From NCBI GenBank assembly GCA_900074885.1, contig FJUW01000059.1:1-64000 (forward strand): a stretch of 64,000 bases of DNA. The letters run 5' to 3'. The stretch comes from Rhynchosporium graminicola (taxonomy: Eukaryota; Ascomycota; Leotiomycetes; Helotiales; Ploettnerulaceae). The notes under the pieces were generated by a model. It was not told the DNA's origin. It made no database searches and saw only the letters and a program-made list of their open reading frames with translations. This document shows positions 54,130-60,165 of this stretch, piece by piece. The first letter of the stretch is position 1. Every line of letters starts with the position of its first letter. A program made the position numbers and the translations under genes.

Positions 54130-55894
54130 CTACTCCTCCTCCTCCTCCTCCTCCTCCTCCTCCTCCTCCTCCTCCTCCTCTTCTATAGTTTATTATACTT
54201 CTTACTAATTATACTACTTCTTAAATACCTTCAAATTCATCTTTATAACCTTTAAGACTCCAGCTTTAATTCCAAGCTATATTCCCTCTCTAATCGTCGT
54301 CTCTAATATTATAGCTATATTATACTCTTACTCTATAAATATCTTAATAGAAAAGTCGAATTACAAAGCTATAGAAGCTTTAGAGAATAGTAAGAGCTTA
54401 TAAAGAAACGTTTTCAGCGAAAATAAAACCTCCTCAGAATTACTACTACTACGCAGTAGGCTCGACTCTCGTAGATCTACTATCGATAGAAACTCACTCC
54501 TAGCTCTCTTCTATAGTCGATTTAGAGGTAATTAAGGTTCAGGCAGTCGATATTCATAGTCTAGAGGAAGTATATTAAGTTAAGGGTATATCAAAGGTAA
54601 AAAATAGCCCTATAGGCTAGGAGTATAAGAAGACTATACTAGAGGAGGTTAAGGAGGTTATATTATAGGGTACTAATATAGGAAGCTATTTAGAGGCAAA
54701 TAAAGCGTCTAAAAAGGGTATTAAGCTCCTGTTCAACGTTCAGATAATAAAGATAAATCATAGTAAGACTCTCTCTTCTTCTACTTCCTCCCTCTTCTCT
54801 CCTTTACTTCTTCTGCCTCTCGACGCCTAGTAAGCTCTCTTAATAAGTCTCGTCTATAAAGTATAGAAAGCTTATTAATTATAATAACTCCTTCTTCAAT
54901 ATCATAGCCCTAGCGAGTCAAATCAGCTCCTAAAAAGTAATAATACTTATTATCATTTACTTAGTAAAAGCGAGTAGTTAAACTATAAGAGCTAACTTTA
55001 TAAGCCTATAGTACTTAAATTAAGATTAAGAGCTCCTTAAAGGTTCCTTTTTCAGCTTAATAGCTTAGTTTCTCCTCCTCTATTAACTATACTATTACTA
55101 TACGAGGTTTCTTAGGCTTTAGTACCTCCTCTCTCTCCTCTCTCAGATCTCTATATATACGCTTTAGAATAGTAATAATTAGAGGCTTTACTAGTACTAG
55201 ATCTTTCTATAGAGGTCGAACTATACTCTAAGGAGTTAAGACGATACTAAAGTAAATCTAGAGTCTAAGTATCTTCTCCTTACCTTTAGCTCTCTAGTTT
55301 AAAACTCGTTTAATAATATAGTCGAAATCAGCTGAATTACTAATATCTACCTTAGTCGGATTACTATTAGCTCTATACGTAGCGTACTAGTAAGTATGAT
55401 CTCTTCTTAAGCTAGAAATACCCCTTGAATTAATAGTATTATCTGCTACCTCTCTAGTAGTCTCCTTAATCGATTAGTAGGTATATCCCTCCTCTCCTAG
55501 CTTATTTAAAATACTACTAATTATACTACTAATACGCTCGCTGTCTAAGTAGTATCGAATTTCTAACTCTATAACCTATATAATAATCTGCAGAGGCGAA
55601 GAAAAGAGTATAATCGATTCAGGTGGAGGTGGAGGCGTCGATTAGCTTGCTATAGCTAGTGCTAGTACTATAGCTAGTACTAGTACTAGTACTAGTACTA
55701 TAGCTAGTACTGTAGCTGCAACTAAGTCTATAGTAGGCTTAGTAGACTCAGTTGCAGTACTCTTGGTATTAATTTTCAGGGTTATTTTAGCTAGTTGTAC
55801 TAGCACAGAAGGTAGTCGAGTACGTGGTTTAGTCGATTTACGTCCTTTTAGAGCTTTTTTACTAATCTTAGAAGTAGATTTAGGAGGTATAGCC
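54130..55894 (-). pseudogene. Second ORF of transposon B2, minus strand, function unknown
   Basis: Same convergent ORF as in B1 but without the solo LTR. The poly-Glu C-terminus is encoded by a longer (CTC)n run (54133-54181) and stops at 54130-54132. The N-terminal 100 codons (55642-55953) are still open and include SKISKKALKGRKSTKPRTR followed by a VLVLVLVL run encoded by a CTAGTA microsatellite. Later parts carry RIP stops. No domain is recognised. Confidence 0.5.
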
Positions 55895-56091
55895 GCAGAC
55901 TGAATATATACTCTATAGATTAAGAGCTTCAAAAAGAAGTAGTTTAGAGGCAAATCGGTATAGTATTTATAGAGCTTCAGTAGTTTCTAGTTCTGATAAT
56001 TATAGTATATTAATATTTAGTAGGGTTCATACTAAAAGGCGGTGTACCGGCGTTATTTACTAAAGAATCACGCTAAACCGAAGAATCACTG
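55895..56091. repeat. Right TIR of B2, complete
   Basis: Ends GAAGAATCACTG, followed by TA at 56092-56093. Confidence 0.9.
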
Positions 56092-56235: not shown

Positions 56236-56359
56236 TCCGCTATGGTGTAACGGTCAGCATACTGCCTTTTCACGGCGGAGACCGGGGGTAAGAAACACAG
56301 TCTGCTACGAATGTTACGCATTCACTGACATCGAACCAGTTCGATTCCCCGTAGCGGAG
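56236..56359 (+). tRNA. tRNA-Glu(UUC) with a 52-nt intron-like insert in the T-arm
   Basis: Acceptor stem TCCGCTA (56236-56242) pairs perfectly with TAGCGGA (56352-56358). The anticodon arm is CTGCC-TTTTCAC-GGCGG (56262-56278) with anticodon TTC, and there is no insert at 37/38. The T-stem CGGGG (56283-56287) is followed by 52 nt (56288-56339) before the T-loop TTCGATT and CCCCG. The insert starts GTAAGA, has CTGAC at 56325-56329 and ends CAG, the pattern of a fungal spliceosomal intron. Removing it leaves a perfect 72-nt tRNA. The A box (TGGTGTAACGG) is intact; the B box is kept as AGTTCGATTCC, its first base coming from the insert. A T7 run follows. It could also be a pseudogene with a lucky insertion. 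Confidence 0.85.
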
Positions 56360-56367
56360 ACTCATGA

Positions 56368-56374
56368 TTTTTTT
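56368..56374 (+). terminator. RNA polymerase III terminator of the tRNA-Glu gene
   Basis: Seven T residues 9 nt after the tRNA 3' end. Confidence 0.8.
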
Positions 56375-57225: not shown

Positions 57226-60165
57226 ATGAGTTACAGCAAGAAAGATGAAGATGGCGATGTTGCCATTATGAAGGTAGACAGAACCTCAGTGTTTCAGGAA
57301 GGTCGGTGAACATTCCCCCTCCATACCGAGCTACCCTAAAACCATACAGCACGATTGTTCAATTCGTCTCCCATTCAGCCTCGCAAATGTCGAGTCCTCC
57401 TCACCAAGATCGCCCTCCTCCTCTATACCGGCGAACGGTTCCCTACCAATGAAGCCACTACCCTCTTCTTCGGAATCTCCAAGTTATTCCAGAACAAAGA
57501 TGCCAGCTTACGGCAGATGGTCCACCTTGTCATCAAGGAATTGGCGAATTCGGCGGAGGATATTATCATGGTTACAAGCACGATCATGAAGGATACAGGT
57601 GGTGGAACAGATGCGATTTACAGACCAAACGCCATTCGGGCGCTCTGCCGGATTATTGATGTGAGTTGAGAAGGACGAGTAGGAGAGCTTGGTTGACATC
57701 GTTAGGCTTCGACTGTACAGAGTATCGAACGGGTTATGAAGACCGCAATCGTCGACAAGAACCCGTCCGTATCATCTGCCGCCCTTATTTCGTCCTACCA
57801 CCTTCTCCCAATTGCTCGCGATGTTGTCCGAAGATGGCAGAGCGAAACACAAGAAGCTGCGTCTTCTACAAAGTCATCCGGTGGATTCTCCTTAGGATTC
57901 TCTACCTCTTCGAATCAAATTCCGGTCAACAACTCTACTATGACACAATATCACGCCATTGGACTCTTGTACCAGATGAGGATGCACGATAGGATGGCGT
58001 TGGTTAAGATGGTTCAGCAATTCGGGACCGCAGGTGCAGTCAAGAGTCCTGCAGCAACCGTTATGCTGGTTCGATTGGCTGCGCAGTTGGCGGAGGAGGA
58101 TCCACAGCTCCGTAAACCCATGATCCAGCTCCTGGACGGCTGGCTGCGACACAAGAGTGAGATGGTCAACTTCGAGGCGGCAAAGGCAATCTGCGATCTG
58201 CGGGATGTGACAGACGCCGAAGTAACCCAGGCAATTCACGTTCTCCAACTTTTCCTTACATCCCCACGAGCCGTCACCAAATTCGCCGCGATCAGGATTC
58301 TCCACAACTTTGCATCTTTCAAGCCTCAAGCGGTCCATGCTTGCAACCCCGACATCGAACTTCTCATTTCCAACACTAATCGTTCCATTGCTACATTCGC
58401 CATCACAACTCTCCTGAAGACTGGAAACGAGGCTAGCGTAGATCGACTGATGAAGCAGATCTCGGGTTTCATGGCTGATATTACGGACGAGTTCAAAATT
58501 ACCATTGTCGAGGCTATCCGGACATTGTGTTTGAAGTTTCCCAGCAAGCAGGCAGGCATGCTTGTTTTCCTGAGTGGTATCCTCCGGGATGAGGGAGGGT
58601 ACGAGTTCAAACGGGCCGTGGTGGAGAGCATGTTCGACTTGATCAAGTTCGTTCCAGATTCAAAGGAGGACGCACTCGCACATCTCTGTGAATTTATTGA
58701 GGACTGTGAGTTCACAAAATTGGCTGTCCGAATCCTACATCTTCTTGGGTTGGAGGGACCCAAAACTTCTCAGCCAACCAAGTATATCCGATACATTTAC
58801 AACCGAGTTGTATTAGAGAATGCAATCGTAAGAGCCGCTGCAGTTACAGCATTGGCAAAGTTCGGAGTCGGGCAACAAGATCCCGAGGTCAAGCGAAGTG
58901 TCACAGTTCTCCTGACGAGATGTCTGGACGATGTCGATGATGAAGTCCGTGATCGAGCTGCTCTAAACTTGCGACTGATGACTGAGCCCGATGAGATGGC
59001 TAATCGTTTCGTCAAAAATGGTAAGGCGATTTTGTGAATCTGATGAAAGCTGCTAACATTTGTAGAAAACACCTTTGCTCTTCCATACTTTGAGCATCAG
59101 CTTGTCATGTATGTAACAGCGGACGACAAGTCAACATTTGAGAATCCTTTCGATGTTGCGGCTATTCCAGTGGTCACGAAAGAGCAAGCAGATGCTGAGG
59201 ACAGGTCGAAGAAGCTCACTACCGCCACCCCAACCATCAAGCCACCAAAGACTGGTCCATCAAAGTCTACGTCTACAAATACAGAAGCAGCAGCCACGGC
59301 TTCTGCAACAGCCCAGAAATACCAGCAAGCACTTCTACAAATTCCAGAAATGAAGTCTTATGGCAGTCTATTGAAGTCGTCACCCGTTGTCGAGTTAACT
59401 GAATCGGAAACAGAATATGTCGTCAGCGTTGTCAAGCACGTTTTCAAAGAACACATTGTACTCCAATACGATGTCAAGAACACACTTCCCGATACAGTGC
59501 TTGAAAATGTATCCATCCTTGCGACACCTTCTGAAGAGGAGGAACTTGAGGAGGATTTCATCATCCAGGCCGCCAAGCTCGTCACAGATGAGCCAGGACC
59601 CATTTATGTTTCATTCAAGAAGGTCGGTGGCGAGGGTGCTTTCTCCGCCAACACCTTTACGAACGTTCTGAAATTCACAACCAAGGAGATTGATCCAACG
59701 ACTGGCGAGCCAGAAGAGAGTGGTTACGATGATGAGTATCAAGTCGAGGATCTCGAGCTCACCGGAAGTGACTATGTTGTCCCAGCATTTGCTGGTAATT
59801 TCAATCACATTTGGGAGCAAGTTGGTGCGGCTGGCGAGGAGGCCAAAGAGACGCTTCAACTCGAGGGTATCAAGAGTATTGCAGGCGAGTAACTCCTATA
59901 AGCATTTTCATTCAACAAGCTAATTATACCAGATGCAACCGAACAACTAGCCACAACCCTTTCGTTGCAACCTCTGGAAGGCACGGACGTACCTATAAAC
60001 ACCACCACCCACACTCTCAAACTCTTCGGCAAAACAGTCACAGGCGGCAGAGTCGTCGCCAATATTCGGATGGCATGCTCTTCCAAATCGGGCGTCACAT
60101 GTCAGATCATCGTCCGCAGTGAAGAAGAAGGCGTGGCGGCCCTTGTCATTGGGTCAGTTGCTTAG
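57226..60165 (+). CDS. sec21: Coatomer subunit gamma (COPI), 5 exons, 917 aa
   Basis: Exons 57226-57301, 57350-57660, 57706-59020, 59066-59884, 59933-60165 (2,754 nt); introns 48, 45, 45 and 48 nt. The start MSYSKKDEDGDVAIMKVDR and the joined FQEARLFNSSPIQPRKC are typical. The first 567 residues or so form the adaptin-like alpha-solenoid (LFFGISKLFQNKD, IDKNPSVSSAAL-like blocks). A linker rich in Thr/Ser/Ala/Pro follows, then the gamma-appendage from about 650 and the C-terminal platform ending RSEEEGVAALVIGSVA. It is part of the COPI coat of Golgi-to-ER vesicles. The last intron best fits a GC-AG pair (GCAG/GCGAGT...CCAG), giving IKSIADATEQL; a weaker GT donor (GTATCA, 16 nt upstream) would delete six residues. 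Confidence 0.95.

Follow-up and report, generated by a model that had tools for sequence, protein, structure and literature searches.

Introns of nuclear tRNA genes are classically described as occupying one position and as being removed by a protein endonuclease, with no role for the spliceosome. U6 snRNA is encoded by a Pol III gene. In fungi, this small-RNA gene can bear mRNA-type introns (surveyed by Canzler et al. 2016, as cited in PMC5832005), and the single U6 match of the present genome reads as having two, the host being U6 and not a tRNA. Similarly, fungal U3 snoRNA genes carry short GT-AG introns with RCTRAY and YAG signals within a structured RNA (PMC5832005). One sentence of a 2017 paper states that, among small structured RNAs, frequent interruption by an intron is known for U3 and U6 only, and this sentence does not name tRNAs (PMC5832005). 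As regards tRNA genes themselves, ectopic introns occupy unusual places in those of two other eukaryotic systems, Cyanidioschyzon merolae (several per gene) and the Guillardia theta nucleomorph; the former introns are ascribed to BHB motifs and the C. merolae endonuclease and many of the latter have no defined BHB motif, whereas the inserts described here carry spliceosomal signals (PMC3978253). Among the papers listed in searches of open-licence literature, no title or abstract opening reported spliceosomal introns in tRNA genes; most subscription journals and all preprints lie outside this literature, and an unseen report is possible.

Using a combination of approaches (tRNA prediction on unspliced and in silico-spliced sequences, paralog comparison, whole-genome searches and shuffled controls), we propose that the GT-AG inserts dividing tRNA genes of this genome (55.3 Mb, 121 contigs) are, as a class, very probably spliceosomal (U2-type) introns of Pol III-transcribed tRNA genes, which the spliceosome would remove.

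A tRNA-Glu(UUC) gene split in its T-arm

The window, that is, the whole stretch of 64,000 nucleotides that was analysed (C85:1-64000), contains on its plus strand a tRNA-Glu(UUC) gene in two parts, both read directly. Exon 1 (56236..56287; tRNA positions 1-53) comprises the acceptor 5' strand, the D-arm, the anticodon arm, the variable loop and the T-stem 5' strand, and is identical (52/52 bases) to an insert-free copy at C35:1151273. Exon 2 (56340..56359; positions 54-73) comprises the T-loop, the T-stem 3' strand, the acceptor 3' strand and the discriminator G, and is also identical to the C35 copy. Between them, a 52-nt GT-AG insert (56288..56339), which direct reading and paralog comparison lead us to interpret as a spliceosomal intron, divides the T-arm between T-stem position 53 and T-loop position 54, as stated in the original prediction.

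The insert begins with the 5' splice site GTAAGA (56288..56293), carries the branch-site motif CTGAC (56325..56329), with the branch A at 56328, at a distance of 11 nt from the end of the insert, and finishes with the 3' splice site CAG (56337..56339), giving the layout GTAAGA...CTGAC-ATCGAACCAG. The CTGAC motif had been correctly noticed, but not its spacing: it was placed 10 nt before the final AG, whereas these 10 nt include the AG, leaving 8 before it. With the final G of the insert, the near-consensus B box AGTTCGATTCC is indeed preserved, as had been pointed out, and the T7 run reported as a terminator, which is Pol III terminator-like, is found at 56368..56374 (plus strand). In addition, a perfect 7-bp inverted repeat, ATCGAAC-CA-GTTCGAT (56330..56345, plus strand), spans the 3' junction, and the corresponding hairpin is present in the predicted fold of the precursor. 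Directly upstream of the gene, positions 55800-56040 of the window are AT-rich and TA-rich, and resemble a RIP-degraded repeat.

The claim that removal of the insert restores a 72-nt tRNA-Glu(UUC) was borne out by two lines of evidence. First, neither ARAGORN nor Rfam (at gathering scores) found a tRNA in the unspliced window, and ARAGORN called tRNA-Glu(ttc) from this gene once the insert had been removed in silico. Second, the spliced tRNA-Glu is identical over 72/72 bases to the insert-free copy C35:1151273-1151344, an unbroken gene that is the one other genomic match to exon 1 in a whole-genome DNA search. The 200-nt flanks of the two copies share identities of 0.64 on the upstream side and 0.61 on the downstream side; shuffling the upstream flank 30 times gave a mean of 0.60 and a maximum of 0.62. 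Hence, inside the gene, the insert is the sole difference between the two copies. This comparison allows two placements of the borders, one base apart, one of which is GT-AG. A genome search retrieved no further copy of the insert among matches at E<=0.001. A strict intron signature has 16 matches on both strands of the window, and only the removal of 56288-56339 yields a tRNA; the 25 candidates in three decoy sequences gave none, the numbers being small on both sides.

GT-AG inserts in nuclear tRNA genes

Other tRNA genes with GT...AG inserts were sought across the genome. Rfam produced 59 tRNA matches (63 of 2047 candidates scored), 14 of them on C1, a 69.6-kb contig that is probably mitochondrial, and 45 elsewhere; B-box-plus-terminator patterns, A-box patterns and DNA queries provided 31 further nuclear tRNA genes. 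The resulting set of 76 nuclear tRNA genes or tRNA-like loci is incomplete, in that Asn, His, Phe, Lys(UUU), Leu(AAG), Val(AAC) and a few other isotypes are not fully covered. Four loci (L053, L117, L118 and L156) are partly tRNA-like, and no single or double GT-AG removal turned them into a tRNA; L053, an Rfam match with no GT-AG insert, is counted in the 76, and the three others are not.

We found 24 GT-AG inserts in 21 of these 76 loci, at about 17 positions from the acceptor stem to the T-arm (the tRNA positions are approximate, being assigned by hand). In the acceptor stem and next to it, they lie at 5/6 in Pro(CGG) C42 and Ile(AAT) C23, at 6/7 in Ile C18 and Ile C29, at 7/8 in Ser C69, which bears a second insert at 28/29, and at 8/9 in Gly(GCC) C69. 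Further on, they occur at 11/12 in Gly(TCC) C57, at 12/13 in Gly(TCC) C119, and in the D-loop of Leu(TAG) C96 and Ala(CGC) C35. The anticodon arm is divided at 27/28 in Tyr C59, at 29/30 in Gly(TCC) C18, at 30/31 in Gly(TCC) C57, at 33/34 in three Ala(AGC) genes and at 42/43 in Ser(GCT) C45. Finally, inserts are found in the variable loop of Gln(CTG) C28 and Pro(CGG) C42, at 53/54 in the Glu(TTC) gene of the window, and at 64/65 in three Asp(GTC) genes. None of the 24 occupies position 37/38, the ordinary SEN site, and most of the insert-bearing genes, with the exception of Glu and Ile, possess an ordinary anticodon-loop intron as well. Both Pro(CGG) C42 and Gly(TCC) C57 combine two GT-AG inserts with one endonuclease-type intron. 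T-runs occur within some tens of bases 3' of most split genes.

A splice-aware scan of the collected loci (635 single removals plus pairs, 13 mitochondrial and two 10-kb loci being left out) gave junction-spanning tRNAs solely at already known tRNA genes, several of which also gave alternatives with a wrong isotype or other borders; it missed the insert of Ile C29, which has TTAAT and was found by eye.

Two isoacceptors appeared only in split form, with the reservation that a divergent insert-free gene could have escaped the searches. A search with the spliced sequence found three Ala(AGC) genes, all split just 5' of the anticodon. Bases 1-32 and 37-72 of the query match each of them at 100%, and the introns share 0.54-0.61 mutual identity, versus 0.49 for shuffles. 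The alanine identity pair, G3:U70, is present. Similarly, three Gly(TCC) genes were found, each with one or two inserts. Since every Ala(AGC) and Gly(TCC) gene found carries inserts, the cell should depend on their removal. The three Gly(TCC) copies (L144, L145 and L146) all have T-T acceptor mismatches at 3-70 and 4-69, which may reflect editing or an unusual tRNA, and they show a compensatory change from G-C to T-A at pair 7-66.

Of the four Asp genes, three are split at one place by differing intron sequences, and the fourth is unbroken. Asp genes at L133, L134 and L136 have long 3' trailers in which stretches resembling one another (TTCATGTCCC or CTTGTCCC) precede the first long T-run. At C78:553845-555057, about 1.2 kb contain a cluster made up of a 5S rRNA gene and of tRNA genes for Trp, Glu(CTC) and Asp, the last of which is split. 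Position 33 of tRNAs is almost universally U, and the serine-type tRNA with two GT-AG introns at L153 (C69:622320-622740, minus strand) has a C there. We also observed a repeated element (L121, L122, L123 and L124) in which a tRNA A-box-like stretch (TAGCGTAGTTGGTRAGAGC) stands beside a palindrome, and which is perhaps a tRNA-derived SINE.

Splice signals, borders and alternative explanations

All 26 inserts (24 in tRNA genes and two in U6), which are 47-63 nt long, start with GTNNG and end with YAG (14 CAG and 12 TAG). The branch motif CTRAY occurs in 25 of them, Ile C29 having TTAAT, and the branch A stands 9-15 nt from the insert end. For comparison, fungal U3 introns have RCTRAY and YAG, and a distance of 6-36 nt from branch to acceptor is quoted for fungal introns (PMC5832005). 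Next to tRNA-Glu, the window contains a coatomer gamma gene. Among the 120 listed of 1786 matches to a fragment of it, identity is 96% with Diplocarpon rosae and 91% with Blumeria hordei, which makes a helotialean or close leotiomycete fungus the probable source. The plus-strand mRNA introns of this gene, with borders placed by eye, serve for comparison: GTAAGG...GCTAAC...TAG (59021..59065, 45 nt) and GTAACT...GCTAAT...CAG (59889..59932, 44 nt, with no G at +5) lie within the protein-aligned part, and a likely third one, GTGAGT...GTTGAC...TAG (57661..57705, 45 nt), precedes the part aligned to the homologous protein.

As the inserts were chosen partly by searching for GT-AG, the 26/26 counts are not blind, and tests against paralogs are less biased. 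Enumerating deletions near 12 junctions, and scoring them against a paralog without that insert, placed GT-AG among the best solutions in 12/12 cases, with one to four tied best placements each and with four of the 12 comparing Gly(TCC) copies that carry other inserts. Exact removal of the inserts gave, for each of the three split Ile(AAT) genes, a sequence matching the insert-free copy at C58 in 74/74 bases, just as spliced Glu matches its own insert-free paralog (72/72). It also raised the number of genes assigned the right isotype by ARAGORN from 2/18 to 17/18 in the set of split genes other than the three Ile genes and U6; the sole miss after splicing is Asp C61, called Phe. Rfam accepts some unspliced split genes, such as Ser C45, Gln C28 and Ala C116, as long-loop tRNAs.

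The U6 gene (L143, C66:344744) reads, by eye, as having one GT-AG intron before CAATTTGAAACG and another after GGATGA. Splicing improves the fit to the Rfam consensus, from 77 identities in 120 columns for the unspliced match to 87 in 113. The unspliced gene aligns end to end to the Rfam model (59.9 bits), poorly at both ends; since the model spans the unspliced gene, the two U6 introns rest on the reading by eye and the comparison of consensus identities. This U6 gene also has an extra base relative to the Rfam consensus, in CTGCACTAAGG. As to 5S rRNA, no insert was found in 32 matches, all of them full-model (47 of 2971 candidates scored), which counts against the proposal, although such a search could miss a split 5S gene.

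The suspicion that the window harbours a spliceosome-matured tRNA is supported by the 21 insert-bearing tRNA genes, the paralog differences, the two isoacceptors for which no insert-free copy was found and the two U6 introns, a genome-wide pattern that makes this interpretation far better founded than the window locus alone did. Three other explanations deserve consideration. The first holds that short inserts killed the tRNA gene of the window, and perhaps other split genes, which are no longer used. Insert-free copies do exist for Glu(UUC), Ile(AAT), Asp, Tyr, Gly(GCC), Pro(CGG) and Ser(GCT), and given the intact Glu(UUC) paralog, loss of function in the window copy alone could be harmless. 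However, the Glu, Ile and Ala exons have stayed identical to those of their paralogs whereas flanks and introns differ, the splice signals are intact in all 26 inserts but for one branch site, and the genes found for Ala(AGC) and Gly(TCC) all bear inserts. Moreover, we did not observe the decayed stems or conserved bases of tRNA pseudogenes in the split genes, the C33 of Ser C69 and the acceptor mismatches of Gly(TCC) being possible exceptions. This explanation is very unlikely in our opinion, and the window Glu copy itself probably yields a tRNA.

According to the second explanation, to which we grant a very small chance, spliceosomal removal of the inserts is confined to read-through transcripts made by Pol II, and the split genes make little tRNA. 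The normal substrates of the spliceosome are indeed Pol II transcripts, and a split A or B box should weaken transcription by Pol III: the insert divides the B box in the window Glu gene, and lies before or inside the A box in other split genes. A shared TATA box, which might let Pol III bypass a split A box, was not consistently found upstream of the split genes, some of which have TATA-like words there. Against read-through stand the T-runs shortly 3' of most split genes, the fact that Ala(AGC) and Gly(TCC) must have some source, and the status of U6 as a known intron host in fungi (PMC5832005).

The third explanation, extremely improbable, regards the inserts as ectopic introns that are substrates of the tRNA endonuclease, comparable to those of a red alga, a nucleomorph and archaea. 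This genome has many ordinary endonuclease-type introns, and there are precedents in the ectopic and multiple tRNA introns of Cyanidioschyzon and in the ectopic ones of Guillardia, many of them without a defined BHB motif (PMC3978253). However, an intron cut by the endonuclease requires neither GT nor a branch site nor YAG, and the BHB-like pairing of the 26 GT-AG inserts (our own simple score, out of 10) averages 3.4, with none reaching 9. This is below both the 395 random sites (mean 4.1; 22 of at least 9) and the 50 ordinary tRNA introns (mean 6.3; 13 of at least 9). Like the inserts, the SEN-removed introns reside in nuclear tRNA genes, including many of the insert-bearing ones; unlike them, they lie in the anticodon loop, measure 9-45 nt in the set compared (longer ones being left out), pair in a more BHB-like manner and in no case of this set show GT...AG (0/50, in uncurated ARAGORN placements of at most 45 nt).

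Other possibilities were rejected. A one-off insertion is ruled out by the pattern shared by 21 tRNA genes. The core of group I and group II ribozymes takes hundreds of nucleotides, far more than the 47-63 nt of the inserts, and the window has no Rfam match of any kind. Finally, an introner or transposon-derived family is excluded, as the 325 pairs of inserts (mean identity 0.57, maximum 0.68) are no more alike than signal-keeping shuffles (mean 0.56, maximum 0.66-0.69); by BLAST, the strongest similarity between two inserts is a 12-nt match (E 0.003) at the branch-site end of Ser C45 and Pro C42.

Proposed maturation path and comparison with known systems

From the borders, splice signals, restored cloverleafs and insert-free paralogs seen in the sequence, we infer transcription, splicing, the use of the spliceosome and the following order of steps. 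Pol III would transcribe the whole split gene, insert included, and the spliceosome would then excise the GT-AG intron or introns in the nucleus. Once these are gone the cloverleaf could fold, and RNase P and RNase Z would trim the tRNA ends. In genes that also have an anticodon-loop intron, its removal by the tRNA endonuclease and ligase would come last. In Ala(AGC), endonuclease cleavage at its normal place would produce an incorrect loop, and the GT-AG insert should therefore go first. The spliceosome is quite probably obligatory for tRNA maturation in this lineage: Ala(AGC) and Gly(TCC), required for decoding their codons, would be encoded solely by intron-bearing genes, and the precursors of Pro(CGG) C42 and Gly(TCC) C57 would need two unrelated splicing machines.

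If the inserts are spliced as we propose, tRNA production is among the tasks of the spliceosome, which can then have Pol III transcripts as regular substrates, and the capacity for translation depends directly on splicing. The natural paralogs with and without an intron provide material for studying intron gain, and the split genes test how Pol III handles divided A and B boxes. As ARAGORN misses or misnames 16 of 18 split genes, the number of tRNA genes may be underestimated in related fungi. It is worth noting that only 50-52 tRNAs were annotated by tRNAscan-SE in each of three mycorrhizal Helotiales (PMC11678538), where split genes might have been missed. Spliceosomal introns are already known in small structured RNAs, namely U6 and U3, and what would be new is their occurrence as a class of tRNA intron, together with tRNAs that need two splicing machines.
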